Of a stretch of DNA of 64,000 bases, positions 12,593 through 41,833 are shown in pieces; position 1 is the stretch's first letter, and each line of letters starts with the position of its first letter. Position numbers and translations under genes: made by a program. This DNA comes from Arcticibacter eurypsychrophilus. Its GTDB lineage: Bacteria > Bacteroidota > Bacteroidia > Sphingobacteriales > Sphingobacteriaceae. The stretch covers positions 1 to 64,000 of the forward strand of contig NZ_MDFN01000030.1 in the NCBI RefSeq assembly GCF_001730525.1, read 5' to 3'. Under the pieces are notes generated by a model, which was not told the DNA's origin, did no database searches, and was given only the letters and a program-made list of their open reading frames with translations.

Positions 12593-13905
12593 CTAAACAT
12601 TAAGGTTTACAATGCGCATAGTTCTCCGTTGTTCAACTGGGTCGCTAAGTTTCTTTATTCTAGCCTCATTAGGTTCGCTCAATAGTGCGATTACCTTTGA
12701 CTGTACTTCATCTACAATGCCCCAGTCCTTTTCGATATAAATATCAGTAGTCTTATTTCCCTGATCTACGTGATTAAGCGCTAATCCCACATCATCCTTA
12801 CTCATGCGGCATTTGTTACGGCCAAGATTTGCGAATGTATGTCGTGCCCAATAAAAGGTTATACCAGATAACTTTGCCCTTTCATTAACAATCTTAATCC
12901 CCTCATTGATCGCTCTATCCAGATTTTCAAAGCTGTTATACCGGGTATGTGATTTTTCAAGATACCTATCCAAAAGTGGTTTCGCCTCTTTCACTACTTT
13001 AATACTTATAAAAGCTTTATCTGATCTTCGGATAGTTTTACTTCTGTTATATTCGACACGGCCTTTAATAATATTGGACGTTCGTAAATGGTATAGATCA
13101 ACCGCGTTCATACCACATAGGTAAAAAGACAGCATAAAAAGATCCTGCACCAATTCAGCCCTGCTATCAGTTGGCACTTTGCAATCACGGATCGCTTTAA
13201 TCTGCTCAACCGTCAGATTTCGTTTCCTAGTTTCCGGGGCATCAACGATTTTGTAATTATCGAAAGGGCAATAAGGTATCCTAATCTCGCCGATTTGCGG
13301 TTTGTTATAAAATTTCATTGCCGCTTTAAACAGTATTCGTAAATCCCGGAAATGATTGTGCACGGCTGCATCACTCATGCCCTTTACTGTCCGGGTGATC
13401 AATTTCCCCTGATTTAAGCGCGTTAATTTTCTTTCAGCCCGTAAATATTTCTCATAAGCGGTAAGCATCCACTCATTGATTTCCAAAGGTGACAAAGCAT
13501 TACCTTTGAAATAATCCTTCAGGCTTAGCAGGACTGTATTCAATGTCCCAGCTGATCCTTTTCTCCCCTGGTTCTTTAAGGCTTCAATATGGTCGCTGCA
13601 AAACCTAAAGAAATCCATCGGTTCATTTTTATCCCTTAAATGGTTCCTTAACGTTTCCGCATTAAAGAGTTCCAGTTTAGGCCCCAGGTTACTGATTGTG
13701 ATTCGGTAATCATCGAGAGTCTGGTTCAGAAACTTTCTTAAGGTAGCATCCTTCAGCGTAGATTTAGCTTGAGTTGCTTGTCAACAACAAAATGGGGAGT
13801 ATCGATGTATTTCTTTTCCCCTTTGTGTGCAATCCTGATTTTTACATTGTAAGTTCCATCTGCTTTTTTGTGGTGTTTGTGAATTTTGATACCTACAGTA
13901 GCCAT
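12593..13905 (-). pseudogene. tyrosine integrase, frameshifted near its N-terminus
   Basis: The long frame (12593-13618 from its first ATG, 341 residues) is a phage-type integrase with a SAM-like domain and a catalytic domain. HxxR is in WARHTFANLG, and the nucleophile Tyr is in TTDIYIEKDW. The same frame continues upstream as coding-like sequence (LKDATLRKFLNQTLDDYR) to about 13780. An N-terminal piece in another frame (13753-13905) begins ATGGCTACT and reads MATVGIKIHKHHKKADG, typical for this integrase family. One base lost between 13753 and 13783 would explain the split. The usual catalytic Arg I is Asn here (GMNAVDL). The gene faces away from, and lies next to, tRNA-Phe. Confidence 0.8.
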
Positions 13906-14003
13906 GACAAAACCTGTTTAACAAAAAAGTTATGTAAAAGCTATCGGAACGGGACGTTCCTGACAGTTGGCTTAAATCTTAAAAAACCGCCTTTATAAAC
14001 GAG

Positions 14004-14036
14004 AAAAGGCCTTTTTCTAAGCGAAAAAGACCTTTT
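14004..14036 (-). terminator. terminator after tRNA-Phe
   Basis: Minus-strand arms AAAAGGTCTTTTTC and GAAAAAGGCCTTTT form a 14-bp stem with one wobble and a 5-nt loop, directly downstream of the tRNA. Confidence 0.75.
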
Positions 14037-14044
14037 TTGTTTTG

Positions 14045-14117
14045 TGGTACCACCTGGATTCGAACCAGGGACACAAGGATTTTCAGTCCTTTGCTCTACC
14101 GACTGAGCTATGGTACC
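14045..14117 (-). tRNA. tRNA-Phe (anticodon GAA)
   Basis: The acceptor stem GGTACCA pairs with TGGTACC. The D arm is AGCTCAGTCGGTAGAGC, the anticodon loop ACTGAAAATC carries GAA, and the T arm GGTTCGAATCC is intact. The discriminator is A and CCA is not encoded. It is a classical integration target. The integrase remnant starts 140 bp beyond its 3' end, which marks this as the junction of the accessory island with core chromosome. Confidence 0.97.
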
Positions 14118-14535
14118 CTATTCGTGTTTGGGTTTGCAAATATAGAATCTTTTTATATTAAATTAACATATTTCGCAAAAATATCCCTTCAAATTCCCAA
14201 ATTCAAATGCTCCCTCCTGATTATTAGAAAATTAAGTCCTAATTATTTTTTTATCCAAACCCTCATTTAGCCCTAAAATCACTCCTTAATACCCCTAAAC
14301 CTCCAACCACATGACAACCAAACTATATTTAAGTCAATATTGATACTAACATGATTCTATCATAAGTCCGACTTTTGCCGCTAAAACATGGACTTATCAT
14401 GGACTCAACCCAGTATCTTACCCGATTCAATAATAATAAAACCTAAACCTATCCCCTCATTCTTACTAATTCCCTACCACACAATTTTACCTCTACCCTA
14501 TAATTCTCTAAACCCAAATTATGTATATTTACATT
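14118..14535. other. intergenic region, promoters only
   Basis: A 418-bp AT-rich divergent spacer. Apart from the tRNA-Phe promoter and a TATATTTA element just before the next gene, I see nothing specific in it. Confidence 0.5.
14137..14144 (-). promoter_or_regulatory. tRNA-Phe promoter, -7 element
   Basis: TATATTTG on the minus strand, an exact match to the Bacteroidota TAnnTTTG consensus, 20 nt upstream of the mature tRNA 5' end. Confidence 0.7.
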
Positions 14536-15006
14536 ATGGAATTTTCACAAAATTCAAAGGTTTGGATTTATCAATCCAACAGACCTTTTGCTCAAGAGGA
14601 GCAGGTTAAAATAGAAAAAATAGTAGCGGAATTTGCCACTGAATGGCAGGCTCATGGCGTACAATTAAAAGCAAGGTCCGAAATTCGATATAACCGCTTT
14701 ATTATATTCATGGTGGATGAAATTAAAGCAAACGCTTCCGGCTGCTCTATTGACCGCTCTGCGGACTTTATCAAGGAATTGGAAGCCGAGTATAAGGTCA
14801 GTCTGTTTGATCGCTTTAATATGGCTTATAAAACGAATGAGGAAGTAATTTCCTGCAACCGCGATGAGTTTGAGGTTTTACTAAATAATGGGATCATTAA
14901 ACCGGATACGATTGTGTTTAACAATATGGTGCATACCAAGGCAGAATTAGATACGAATTGGGAAATTCCTTTTAATAAAAGCTGGCACGCACGCGTATTT
15001 GCTTAA
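14536..15006 (+). CDS. conserved Bacteroidota protein of unknown function
   Basis: A 156-residue soluble protein without a signal peptide or membrane segment. It resembles a small family widespread in Bacteroidota that is often labelled ABC transporter ATPase without any Walker motif. None is visible here, so I do not assign that function. The ATG at 14536 (MEFSQNSKVW) is chosen over the one at 14521, because the earlier start overlaps a TATATTTA promoter-like element. The stop codon lies in the first unit of a 22-bp tandem repeat. Confidence 0.75.
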   Translation: MEFSQNSKVWIYQSNRPFAQEEQVKIEKIVAEFATEWQAHGVQLKARSEIRYNRFIIFMVDEIKANASGCSIDRSADFIKELEAEYKVSLFDRFNMAYKTNEEVISCNRDEFEVLLNNGIIKPDTIVFNNMVHTKAELDTNWEIPFNKSWHARVFA

Positions 15007-15110
15007 TCCAACAAGTATCTACACTTAATCAGGCACCTATATTCGCTTAATCAAACTACTATCTGGCTTTAATCATAAACGTATCTTCACTTAATCCGGC
15101 AACCTTATAT
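15001..15110. repeat. five 22-bp tandem repeat units between convergent genes
   Basis: TTAATC recurs at exactly 22-bp spacing (units start at 15001, 15023, 15045, 15067, 15089). Units 1 to 4 also share a TAT near unit position 16. The first unit supplies the TAA of the gene at 14536, and the last supplies the TAA of mtgA on the other strand. Confidence 0.85.
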
Positions 15111-15813
15111 ACCGCATATTCCGCATAATCACCCCTCTTTTATAATAAATATAATTGGTTGGATGCTCCGGCGTCCATTTCCTTGGATTCGGAAACACAG
15201 CTACCAGTAGTGCAGCCTGCCTTCTACTCATGCTCCGGGCAGACTTAGAGTAATACTCTTGTGTAGCCGCTTCCGCTCCATAAATACCATCCCCCATTTC
15301 TATCACATTCAGATAAACTTCCAGAATCCGTTGTTTACTCCAGAATACCTCAATCAGCACCGTAAACCAGGCTTCAAATCCTTTACGTAACCAGGACCTT
15401 CCTCCCCATAGAAATACATTCTTTGCGGTTTGCTGACTGATAGTACTTCCCCCGCGGATAGGTTTACCTGCACGGTTCTTTAGATAAGCTTTTTGAATCG
15501 CATTGGCATCGAAACCCCAATGCTGGACAAACCCTGCATCCTCTCCGGCAATAGCTGCCTTCTTCAGGTTAGCGGACAGCTCATCATAGTCACGCCACTC
15601 CTGGTCAATCTTCCAGCTCTTACCGTCAAGCTTTCGCTCAAACCCTCTTTGAATCATCAACGAGGTAAAAGGCGGATTGATAAAGCGATATAACAAAACC
15701 CACAAAACACTCAGGGCCAGAAACCAAACGAAGGCCCTTTTTAAATATGTTAGAATGCTAATGAAAAGAGAACGACTACCCTTCCCTGCTGAATACTTTT
15801 TTTTACTAGACAT
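15091..15813 (-). CDS. mtgA: monofunctional peptidoglycan glycosyltransferase
   Basis: A 240-residue GT51 enzyme that polymerises lipid II into glycan strands at the outer face of the inner membrane. One N-terminal membrane helix (about residues 25-48) precedes the catalytic domain. The family marks EDAGFVQHWGFD (catalytic Glu), RGGSTISQQTAKN, and the membrane-proximal KGFEAWFTVLIE are present. There is no transpeptidase domain, and the length fits the monofunctional family. It starts 60 bp beyond the rplI stop, behind the ribosomal operon's terminator. Its C-terminus (RLPD) and stop lie in the last 22-bp repeat unit. Confidence 0.93.
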   Translation of the reverse strand: MSSKKKYSAGKGSRSLFISILTYLKRAFVWFLALSVLWVLLYRFINPPFTSLMIQRGFERKLDGKSWKIDQEWRDYDELSANLKKAAIAGEDAGFVQHWGFDANAIQKAYLKNRAGKPIRGGSTISQQTAKNVFLWGGRSWLRKGFEAWFTVLIEVFWSKQRILEVYLNVIEMGDGIYGAEAATQEYYSKSARSMSRRQAALLVAVFPNPRKWTPEHPTNYIYYKRGVIMRNMRYIRLPD

Positions 15814-15821
15814 TTTCTTAC

Positions 15822-15855
15822 AAAAAAAGGCGCCCTGTTATGGAGCGCCCTTTCA
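15822..15855 (-). terminator. terminator of rpsF-rpsR-rplI
   Basis: The minus strand reads AAAGGGCGC, an 11-nt loop, GCGCC and a run of seven T residues, between rplI and mtgA. Confidence 0.75.
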
Positions 15856-15872
15856 TTATCTTTAAAATTAAC

Positions 15873-16316
15873 TTATTCAGCGATCACTTCAAAAGGAACC
15901 TGAACCTTAACTTCTTTATGAAGATTTAAGTTAGCAACATATTCGCCAACAAATTTAGGTTCTGATTCGAAAGTGATACGACGACGGTCTACTTCAAATC
16001 CTAGTTTTTTCAATGCTTCTGCTACCTGAATGGTATTTACTGCACCAAAGATCTTTCCGCTTTCACCAGCCTTAGCGCCGATACTTAATTTAACTCCTTC
16101 TAACCGTGCTGCAACAGCAAGAGCGTCATTTTTGATCTTCTCTTGTTTGAACTGTGCTTGTTTCAGGTTTTCTGCAAGAACTTTCTTAGCAGATGAAGTA
16201 GCCATAATTCCGAATCCCTGAGGAATAAGGAAATTACGTCCGTAACCTGGCTTAACGCTTACAATATCGTCTTTCTCGCCAAGGTTCTTAATATCTTGTT
16301 TTAAAATGATTTCCAT
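15873..16316 (-). CDS. rplI: ribosomal protein bL9
   Basis: A 147-residue bL9 with the conserved N-terminal domain (MEIILKQDIKNLGEKDDIV, PGYGRNFLIPQG) that binds 23S rRNA. A long connecting helix and a C-terminal domain with KIFGAVNTIQVAEAL follow. The length is normal. It is the last gene of the rpsF-rpsR-rplI operon, 15 bp after rpsR. Confidence 0.97.
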   Translation of the reverse strand: MEIILKQDIKNLGEKDDIVSVKPGYGRNFLIPQGFGIMATSSAKKVLAENLKQAQFKQEKIKNDALAVAARLEGVKLSIGAKAGESGKIFGAVNTIQVAEALKKLGFEVDRRRITFESEPKFVGEYVANLNLHKEVKVQVPFEVIAE

Positions 16317-34220: not shown

Positions 34221-36495
34221 ACGATATATAAAATACTTCTTGTTACTCTGTGTAGCGTTTCTTGCTGCATGTAATGTGACGAAAAATGTTCCCGAAGGTG
34301 ATTTTCTGTATACTGGTGCAAAGGTTAAAATTGAAGACAAGGACCTGAAGAAAAAAGATAAAAAGATCTTGGAACCCGACCTGACCAGTTTATTAAGGCC
34401 TAAACCGAATATGTCTATTTTGGGGATCAGGCCCAAAATATGGATCTATAATATTACCAAAAACGCGAAGAAAGGACCGTTGAAATGGATTAAAAAGTAC
34501 GGTGAGCCCCCTGTATTATTCAGTTCGGTAAAGGTAGATTACAATCGGGATATCGTTTCTAACAGGCTTGAAAATAAAGGTTTTTTTGTGGCTAGCACGA
34601 ATGCGGATACCACTATACATGGTAAAAAAGCTTCTCTTACTTATCAGGCTTTGGCTGGACCGCGATATCTGATTAAAACCGTTAATTTTACTACGGATAG
34701 TTCTGACCTTGGAAAAGCAGTACATGCTACAGCTGAGGATAGCCAGTTAAAAGTTGGCGACAGTTATGACCTTGATGTCATTAAACTGGAACGTGAACGG
34801 ATCGACTCCCGGCTGAAAGAACAGGGATTTTACTACTTTAGCCCGGAGAATCTTATTGTTCAGATTGACAGTACTACAGCCGATCACAAGGTTGATTTGT
34901 ATATGAACATCAAAGACGCAACTACTGAAAAAGCGAAGGATATTTACAAGATCAATAACATTTTTATCTATCCTAACTTTAAACTTAGGGACACTGTACA
35001 GGGAAAAAGTCCGGAAGCTGTGAAGTATAAGGACTTTTATGTCATTGACCGGACGAATATGTTCAAACCTGCTGTATTTGAACGGACTATGTTCTTTTAT
35101 AAGGGGGACACCTATAATCGTGCAGATCATAATTTGTCTTTAAGCAGATTGACCAGTTTGGGTACTTTCAAGTTTGTTAAGAATCAATTTATAGAATCGG
35201 ACACGACGAAAAAGGCACTGGACGCCTATTATTACCTCACTCCTATGGCTAAAAAGTCTATTCGGGCAGAGGTAACGGGAAGAACAAATTCAGCTAATTT
35301 TACCGGATCGGAATTTACATTAAGCTGGCGGAACAGGAATGCTTTCCGGGGTGCGGAACTGCTAACTCTATCTGCTTATGTGGCCACTGATGTACAAGTA
35401 TCGGGCAATAATAGCGGAGACGGGATTTTTAGATATGGTACAGAGGCCAACCTCAGTATTCCACGTTTCCTTACTCCTTTTAAACTGAATACGAGTAGTG
35501 CTTATATTCCACGTACACGGTTTGTTTTGGGGTATGACCGCCTGGAAAGAAAGAACAGTTACAAGTTAAATTCATTTCGTACCTCGGTGGGTTACACCTG
35601 GAAAGAGAGTTTGGAAAAGGAACATCAGCTGACCGTTTTAGGGGTAACTTATGTACATGCCCCATTTGTATCTCCAGCTTATGACACATTGGCTCAAACT
35701 AATTCTACTTATAGAAATGCGATTCAAGATCAGTTTATAATTGGCCCTAACTATAATTTCAATTATACGAACACCCACCGTGCTTATAAAAAGAATACCT
35801 TTTATTTCAATGCGAATCTGGATATGTCTGCTAATTTATTGGGCTTAATTCAGGGGGCAAAGGTAGAAAATGAAAAGAAATTATTCAACACCCCCTATTC
35901 CCAATATGTAAGGGGTGAATTAGACTTCAGACACTATTATAAGTTGGGTATAAATTCACAATGGGCATCTCGACTAATTATGGGTTATGGTCAAGCGTAC
36001 GGGAACTCGCGATCATTACCATTTGTTAAGCAGTTTTTTATTGGCGGCACGAATAGTTTAAGAGCATTCCGTGCAAGGTCTCTGGGTCCGGGGGTATATC
36101 GTGATCCGGCGCAGGATTCCAATGATACCATAGCAGCCGATCAATCCGGAGATATTAAGCTGGAATTTAACACCGAATTCAGGCCTAAATTATTCAGTAT
36201 TGTAAGAGGAGCCTTGTTCCTGGATGCCGGTAACATCTGGTTACTAAATAATGATACTAACCGATCCGGTGCTAAGTTTACTAAAGATTTTATGAAAGAG
36301 CTTGCCGTAGGAACAGGAGCCGGAGTAAGGATTGATGCCTCCATATTAATTTTACGTCTTGACCTGGCATTTCCTCTCCGGAAGCCATGGTTGCCTGAAG
36401 GTGAACGCTGGGTATTTGATGAAATCAATTTCGGAAACAAGGAATGGAGAAAAGACAATCTAGTGTTAAATTTAGCAATTGGGTATCCATTCTAA
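34213..36495 (+). CDS. tamL: TamL-type Omp85 lipoprotein (BamA/TamA family)
   Basis: A 760-residue outer-membrane protein. The ATG at 34213 (MTKRYIKYFLLL) gives a lipoprotein signal with lipobox FLAAC and lipidated Cys20. Earlier in-frame ATGs at 34177 and 34195 would break it. POTRA-like repeats occupy about 30-330. A 16-strand barrel follows with the Omp85 signature FFIGGTNSLRAFRARSLGPG and a C-terminal aromatic end (LAIGYPF). In Bacteroidota the lipidated TamA relative TamL pairs with TamB. The overlap ATGACTAA with tamB implies coupled expression. Confidence 0.93.
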   Translation: MTKRYIKYFLLLCVAFLAACNVTKNVPEGDFLYTGAKVKIEDKDLKKKDKKILEPDLTSLLRPKPNMSILGIRPKIWIYNITKNAKKGPLKWIKKYGEPPVLFSSVKVDYNRDIVSNRLENKGFFVASTNADTTIHGKKASLTYQALAGPRYLIKTVNFTTDSSDLGKAVHATAEDSQLKVGDSYDLDVIKLERERIDSRLKEQGFYYFSPENLIVQIDSTTADHKVDLYMNIKDATTEKAKDIYKINNIFIYPNFKLRDTVQGKSPEAVKYKDFYVIDRTNMFKPAVFERTMFFYKGDTYNRADHNLSLSRLTSLGTFKFVKNQFIESDTTKKALDAYYYLTPMAKKSIRAEVTGRTNSANFTGSEFTLSWRNRNAFRGAELLTLSAYVATDVQVSGNNSGDGIFRYGTEANLSIPRFLTPFKLNTSSAYIPRTRFVLGYDRLERKNSYKLNSFRTSVGYTWKESLEKEHQLTVLGVTYVHAPFVSPAYDTLAQTNSTYRNAIQDQFIIGPNYNFNYTNTHRAYKKNTFYFNANLDMSANLLGLIQGAKVENEKKLFNTPYSQYVRGELDFRHYYKLGINSQWASRLIMGYGQAYGNSRSLPFVKQFFIGGTNSLRAFRARSLGPGVYRDPAQDSNDTIAADQSGDIKLEFNTEFRPKLFSIVRGALFLDAGNIWLLNNDTNRSGAKFTKDFMKELAVGTGAGVRIDASILILRLDLAFPLRKPWLPEGERWVFDEINFGNKEWRKDNLVLNLAIGYPF

Positions 36496-36597
36496 TGTTT
36501 AAACAAAATTTGTGTTACATTTAATGAATTCTATCGAATAGGTTAGGGGATTTATTTAAATTGCCTAACTTTTATTACATACTAAATTACCTAAAAC

Positions 36598-41402: not shown

Positions 41403-41446
41403 ATTACTATTTCTGACTTTTAACATTACTATTCTTGACTTTTAAC
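41403..41446. repeat. two 22-bp direct repeats between convergent genes
   Basis: Units 41403-41424 and 41425-41446 match at 20 of 22 positions. Both end in GACTTTTAAC. A degenerate partial copy precedes them. The stop codon of the S4 protein (minus strand) lies inside the second unit. Confidence 0.85.
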
Positions 41447-41833
41447 ATCTTCATCACTAATCAGATCATCAATTTCTCTTCTATCTTTCTTTGTAGGCCT
41501 TCCCGTGCCCCTGTCTCTCTTCAATGAGGGAGCATGAAACATTGATTTATAACCTAATGTTTCTTCTTCTGGTGTGATATCTTCGTAAAAATTGACTACC
41601 GTTTTAGCATCTACCCTACTGTGTAGAAGTCCGGTTACCCGTACCTGTTTACGTTCAATACCTTTTGAGACATGAAAAACATCTCCTATTTTCACCTCGT
41701 AGGAAGGTTTAATATTTTGTCCGTTTAACTTTATACGTCCGGCTTTGCATGCATCTGTTGCTAAAGTACGCGTCTTAAATAGTCGGATTGACCAAAGATA
41801 TTTATCTATTCGTAGTTTTTCTTTCTCGCCCAT
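41429..41833 (-). CDS. S4-domain RNA-binding protein (Hsp15-like)
   Basis: A 134-residue protein with an S4 RNA-binding fold: LRIDKYLWSIRLFKTRTLA, then CKAGRIKLNGQNIKPSYEVK and GDVFHV. The basic tail (KRDRGTGRPTKKDRREI) is typical of the Hsp15/HslR group that rescues stalled 50S subunits. The start MGEKEKLRIDKYL at 41833 is preferred; the 23 codons upstream are hydrophobic and unlike the family. The last residues (DVKSQE) are encoded by a 22-bp repeat unit. Confidence 0.87.
   Translation of the reverse strand: MGEKEKLRIDKYLWSIRLFKTRTLATDACKAGRIKLNGQNIKPSYEVKIGDVFHVSKGIERKQVRVTGLLHSRVDAKTVVNFYEDITPEEETLGYKSMFHAPSLKRDRGTGRPTKKDRREIDDLISDEDVKSQE

Follow-up and report, generated by a model that had tools for sequence, protein, structure and literature searches.

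A junction between two convergent genes in the genome of Arcticibacter eurypsychrophilus raises the question of how an array of short repeats can come to hold the stop codons of both genes and whether it does anything there. We analyzed a 64,000-nucleotide stretch of this genome (the window) together with the 4.69-Mb assembly from which it comes (G000) and five other species of the genus (G001 to G005). At the junction, a plus-strand gene whose protein has no Pfam or NCBIfam match faces mtgA, whose protein matches TIGR02070 with an E value of 2.5e-85 (285.5 bits; cutoff, 182.65), and 84 bp separate the two gene ends. The features are as follows.

14521..15006, plus strand: gene of 161 aa from the open reading frame list; its stop codon, TAA at 15004-15006, lies inside unit 1
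15091..15813, minus strand: mtgA, monofunctional peptidoglycan transglycosylase, 240 aa (PF00912, TIGR02070)
15003..15024, no strand: unit 1, holding the TAA of the plus-strand gene
15025..15046, no strand: unit 2 (direct reading and resampling)
15047..15068, no strand: unit 3 (direct reading and resampling)
15069..15090, no strand: unit 4 (direct reading and resampling)
15091..15112, no strand: unit 5, formed by the 3' end of mtgA with its stop at 15091-15093
15003..15090, no strand: 88 bp (4 x 22) present in the window and missing at the same junction in G004

Elsewhere in the window, positions 12593-14120 carry an integrase-like gene (Phage_int_SAM_5) and, by eye, a candidate tRNA gene on the minus strand near 14045-14118; this region may be the edge of an integrated element.

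Read directly from the sequence, TTAATC starts at 15003, 15025, 15047, 15069, and 15091, every step being 22 bp. A first-pass annotation had reported these five copies and had assigned the first to the stop of the plus-strand gene and the last to the stop of mtgA; the open reading frame list agrees on both stops. None of 20,000 Markov-resampled junctions gave a hexamer five times at equal spacing (the maximum, four, was reached once), and 60 resamplings of the whole window gave at most three equally spaced copies. The five-copy TTAATC array is not a chance product. The annotation had also called the array exact, which is true of the spacing and the hexamer but not of the rest of the unit: units differ pairwise at 5 to 11 of 22 positions (JC 0.27 to 0.82), all among the 16 positions outside TTAATC, and of the 8 invariant columns, six are TTAATC itself. 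TRF reports a period of 22 with 4.6 copies and 64% matches, or a period of 44 with 2.3 copies and 75% matches. The unit is specific to this locus; TTAATC-N16-TTAATC-N16-TTAATC has no other occurrence in the assembly, and blastn of the array against its own genome found no second copy better than an E value of 0.268.

The junction in G004, the closest relative (mtgA 91% identical), indicates where the array sits relative to the gene ends. There, the last codons of the plus-strand gene are GCC TAA, the stop of mtgA on the opposite strand is TAG, and the two genes share the four bases CTAA. Without 15003-15090, the window aligns with G004 without a gap across the junction (182 of 202 bases identical). 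The difference is thus exactly 88 bp, or four units, and the array is therefore a tandem repeat that was either acquired at a shared stop or lost from one. Because the gene ends share one stop tetramer once the array is left out, both stops can be copies of a single junction motif. The G004 state resembles the 4-bp convergent overlaps (CTAA, TTAA, CTAG, or TTAG) described in PMC2174442, whereas in the window the stops lie 88 bp apart with the array between them.

The array was not found in more distant relatives whose two genes lie close together. The gap between the two genes is 14 bp in G002, 9 bp in G003, 53 bp in G001, and 96 bp in G005. Among the 80 loci listed, the best named relatives of mtgA belong to Sphingobacteriaceae (Hufsiella, Daejeonella, and Pedobacter, then Mucilaginibacter). 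A homologue of the plus-strand gene is convergent with mtgA at a measurable gap in 61 of 85 related loci (-9 bp to about 2.9 kb), and none of the 22 of these with a gap of at most 120 bp has a TTAATC pair at a spacing of 22. Since the outgroups lack the array, the simplest history would place its gain after G002 had split off; the array would then have arisen either in G000 alone or in the common ancestor of G000 and G004, with later loss in G004. Three TTAATC copies at the G005 junction are not the same array, because two belong to what is left of a small gene and the last one coincides with the end of mtgA; most of the G005 gap is this remnant (26 residues, 62% identity, E value of 1.5e-9). 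By eye, several loci of Pedobacter and Mucilaginibacter carry a small gene at this place, flanked by mtgA and the homologue of the plus-strand gene, and a similar remnant is suspected in G001 by eye alone, with no blast match.

Together, these comparisons suggest that the array is, in all probability, a small decayed intergenic tandem repeat (a minisatellite) that split a shared convergent stop. An intergenic tandem repeat calls for at least two head-to-tail copies above chance, and the junction has five at a period of 22; in minisatellites, copy number differs between related genomes, and G004 has exactly four units fewer (with one genome per species in the collection, this is a comparison between species). 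The array shares with other bacterial intergenic tandem repeats and VNTR-like minisatellites its head-to-tail noncoding copies, its locus-specific unit, and a unit number, or presence, that differs between related genomes. Satellites in prokaryotes are treated in PMC6749651 and intergenic tandem repeats behind noncoding deletions in lake bacteria in PMC9426551. Unlike hypervariable VNTR loci, the array has strongly diverged units, as the low TRF match percentage indicates, and it is therefore old and decaying rather than hypervariable.

In the history that we propose, the two convergent genes would at the start have had a single 4-bp stop in common (CTAA or TTAA). Tandem duplication of 22 bp would have taken in this stop, and the addition of more units, by slippage or unequal exchange, would have pushed the gene ends apart, with the first and last copies of the motif each retaining one of the two stops. 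The units would later have decayed at about the rate of weakly constrained sites, while the genes' need for a stop has kept the two outer ones; the array as such is probably without function. The first-pass annotation had offered, as one possibility, an array grown outward into both gene ends. Its idea of growth was near the mark and its geometry was not, as both stops are possibly copies of one motif, judging from G004. Seeding from the end of mtgA or from that of the plus-strand gene was considered, and neither stands out against shuffled flanks: flanks resemble the inner units at 27 to 29 of 64 positions for every split of the G000 flanks (21 to 29 for G004), and shuffled flanks reach the best real value in 407 of 5,000 cases.

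The units have diverged about as much as the fourfold sites of the two flanking genes. Between G000 and G004, fourfold sites differ at 16 of 46 in the plus-strand gene (JC 0.47) and at 33 of 87 in mtgA (JC 0.53), and units that were duplicated at about the time of the G000-G004 split and drifted since would look as observed. The next gene, rplI, shows differences at only 5 of its 62 fourfold sites (JC 0.09), and against this measure the units would look old; because rplI is far less diverged, the neutral yardstick is rough and dependent on the gene chosen.

A decayed repeat of this kind has to be weighed against readings in which the array has a task. According to the first-pass annotation, stops in all six frames could insulate the junction against read-through translation. 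The 84-bp spacer does hold stops in all six frames, and TTAATC is invariant across the five units, as might be expected of an array kept because such stops block read-through from either gene. Stops in six frames are ordinary, however, occurring in 7,833 of 20,000 resampled spacers (39%) and in 34 of 70 real spacers of 75 to 95 bp in the sampled genome, so that the junction is no better provided with them than spacers of its size. The same gene pair, moreover, overlaps in G004 (4 bp) and nearly abuts in G002 (14 bp) and G003 (9 bp). Since the sister species does without the array at the same junction, we regard the array as an ordinary small repeat rather than a translation-stopping device, and insulation is very improbable. 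The same holds at the level of transcription. Terminators are commonly found between convergent genes, and a bidirectional terminator for this pair would be in keeping with that pattern, but shuffled sequences fold at least as well as the array in 186 of 200 cases on the plus strand (z +1.38) and 160 of 200 on the minus strand (z +0.86). Scanning 14400-15900 gave three terminator-like sites (1.3 in shuffles; standard deviation, 1.4), none of them within 15003-15112, and no stable GC-rich hairpin followed by a T run was found inside the array; a terminator-like site at 15160-15177, on the plus strand inside mtgA and past the end of the plus-strand gene, could serve the plus-strand gene without the array. 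We give the terminator reading scarcely any credence.

Two further readings take up the repeat structure itself. Protein-binding sites that all face the same side of the helix and influence transcription or the structure of the chromosome would account for a spacing of 22 bp, which is about two helical turns, for the invariant hexamer within diverged units, and for the presence of other 11- and 22-bp arrays in G000. TTAATC is intact also in units 2 to 4, where no gene needs it, and given 8 invariant columns, a contiguous invariant run of at least 6 has a permutation P value of 0.007. Drift does not readily give such an unbroken inner TTAATC, which hints at constraint; the P value is post hoc and only a hint, because the pattern was noticed before it was tested. 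Against binding sites stand the other 22-bp arrays, which differ in sequence (the best match elsewhere in the genome being that with an E value of 0.268), and the absence of the array from the 22 related junctions with short gaps. An excess of TTAATC in the sampled convergent spacers (47 occurrences versus 15 of its reverse complement) comes mostly from two spacers bearing CRISPR-like repeats. Binding sites are, on balance, unlikely. The alternative that an element of about 81 bp inserted with a 7-bp target duplication (TTAATCC at 15003 and 15091) draws on the same seven bases flanking the 88-bp difference, as seen by eye. A target duplication leaves the inner TTAATC copies at 22-bp spacing unexplained, and blastn found no second genomic copy of such an element with an E value better than that already given, which makes a mobile element highly doubtful. 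The decayed minisatellite remains the reading that we prefer.

TTAATC was accordingly rejected as a motif of convergent spacers: 31 of the 47 occurrences lie in two spacers of contig C44, and the 19 of these that were inspected all fall in the CRISPR-like repeat.

G000 C44:32438-32730 and 34697-36513: CRISPR-like arrays, repeat ending CCCTTAATCGCACCGTACTGGAATTGAAAT, period about 66

Some adjacent spacers of these arrays are identical, and a run of plus-strand genes beside them may be putative cas genes. A CRISPR array consists of repeats of roughly 23 to 50 bp with unique spacers of similar length; the window array, with a whole period of 22 bp and a constant part of 6 bp, was rejected as one.

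Whether such arrays are enriched at convergent junctions, the check proposed with the first-pass annotation, was addressed in 1.261 Mb of G000 (27%, the window included), comprising a first sample of 861 kb and a second of 400 kb; spacer classes come from a home-made open reading frame caller rather than from an annotation, and CRISPR stretches were counted as spacer. A sensitive scan of 688 spacers (154 kb) gave 41 self-matches, 29 of them at lags of 11, 22, 33, or 44, compared with 8.0 and 0.7, respectively, per set of resampled spacers. Many of the 11-bp matches belong to two dispersed families, of the GTGGCCTCAC and GTGCGGAGAAG types. Without these families, 11 merged loci at multiples of 11 remain, of which 5 are convergent, 5 co-directional, and 1 divergent; as convergent spacers make up 15.6% of spacer bases, 5 of 11 corresponds to a binomial P value of 0.018. 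The weak overall excess drops to 4 of 10 (P = 0.056) without the TTAATC array and to 3 of 9 (P = 0.15) without both arrays of the window, and, though promising in the first sample, it was not repeated in the second, in which none of 3 multiple-of-11 arrays is convergent and a strict scan found no intergenic match at 22, 33, or 44 bp. Enrichment is therefore not established. Of the five convergent arrays, three extend over the stop of a gene, which is unsurprising for arrays roughly equal in length to the spacers. A relaxed repeat scan of G001 was left out, its control giving 117.7 matches versus 125 in the sequence, probably through masked N runs.

The two dispersed families are located as follows.

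G000 C5:16870, C5:82816, C6:112304, C7:50686, C11:201015, C11:355405, C12:46944, and C88:50786: GTGAGGCCAC / GTGGCCTCAC element
G004 C10:5111-5157 and others: GTGAGGCCAC / GTGGCCTCAC element
G000 C4:72777, C19:30689, C20:48162, C26:55824, C77:85552, and others: dispersed 11-bp repeat GTGCGGAGAAG

The first consists of a TTTT...AAAA core of about 16 bp between inverted arms, GTGAGGCCAC / GTGGCCTCAC, each of which often recurs in 11-bp steps. Its exact pattern occurs at 8 places in G000, 8 in G002, and 7 in G004 and at none in G001, G003, or G005, and the reversed control gave none; where sampled, the element is intergenic by our own gene calls. One copy lies about 600 bp from mtgA in G004. The 17-base pattern of the GTGCGGAGAAG family has 11 exact matches at 9 places in G000 and 4 in G004, with none in the other four species.

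Other arrays of G000 also change between species. The window holds a second one.

41403..41448, no strand: 22-bp array of 2.1 units at a convergent junction, overlapping the end of a minus-strand gene

By eye, this array is longer and degenerate in G004, and none was seen in G001, G002, or G005; G003 gave no match for the region. Likewise by eye, G004 has no more than part of a unit of the 44-bp array at C11:226727, and it lacks the 22-bp array at C4:67153 along with some adjoining sequence. All three of these other arrays compared between G000 and G004 thus differ between the sister species.

The repeat step itself may differ between G000 and the other species sampled. For this comparison we used a strict detector, which gave 24 loci in G000, or 13 after removal of 11 in the two dispersed 11-bp families; the 80 loci of other species all surround mtgA and come mostly from Pedobacter and Mucilaginibacter, and all 38 repeat loci among them were kept. 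Multiples of 11 account for 7 of 13 repeat loci in G000 and multiples of 7 for none, whereas in the other species multiples of 11 account for 1 of 38 and multiples of 7 for 25 of 38 (Fisher P = 1e-4 for the 11-bp counts). In a sample of G005, 4 of 13 loci were multiples of 11 and 7 of 13 multiples of 7. With the families kept, multiples of 11 make up 18 of 24 loci in G000, 2 of 2 in G002, 2 of 3 in G004, and 1 of 4 in G001. In several Pedobacter, degenerate 7-bp repeats (periods of 14, 21, and 35) lie no farther than about 110 bp downstream of mtgA (loci L045, L052, L065, L066, and L071). The contrast is a lead only, because the samples are small, the 80 loci are confined to the surroundings of mtgA, related arrays do not count as independent, and little was gained from the second G000 sample.

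Short-period spacer repeats with a 7-bp step are known from elsewhere. Intergenic heptamer repeats, such as TAACTGA, occur in Beggiatoaceae, Cyanobacteria, and some Bacteroidetes according to PMC4679880. The loci of Pedobacter and other relatives, with their multiples of 7 bp, are similar in kind; the window array differs in its period of 22, a multiple of 11, and in its sequence. The available parts of PMC4679880 and PMC6749651, on heptamer repeats in bacteria, and of PMC4060949, on repeats of 6 to 11 bp over-represented in a few genomes, do not mention a contrast between 11-bp and 7-bp steps. In the openly readable literature, mainly titles and the beginnings of abstracts, neither the window array nor this contrast is described, which is no proof of novelty.

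As a single feature, the junction illustrates the splitting of a shared convergent stop by repeats for which no function need be assumed. The array is real, locus-specific, and decayed, it is of a known and ordinary kind, and its two stops were probably once one; by itself it matters little. We tentatively raise the possibility that a process working in 11-bp steps, about one helical turn, operates in G000 and its close kin, where it would yield arrays of 11, 22, 33, and 44 bp, and one working in 7-bp steps operates in Pedobacter, other relatives, and largely G005, the window array being a product of the former. If so, a factor acting in replication, repair, or the nucleoid would have changed within a single family. 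The lean toward 11 or 7 would merit a systematic survey, since a step that follows clades would lead to the machinery behind the repeats.
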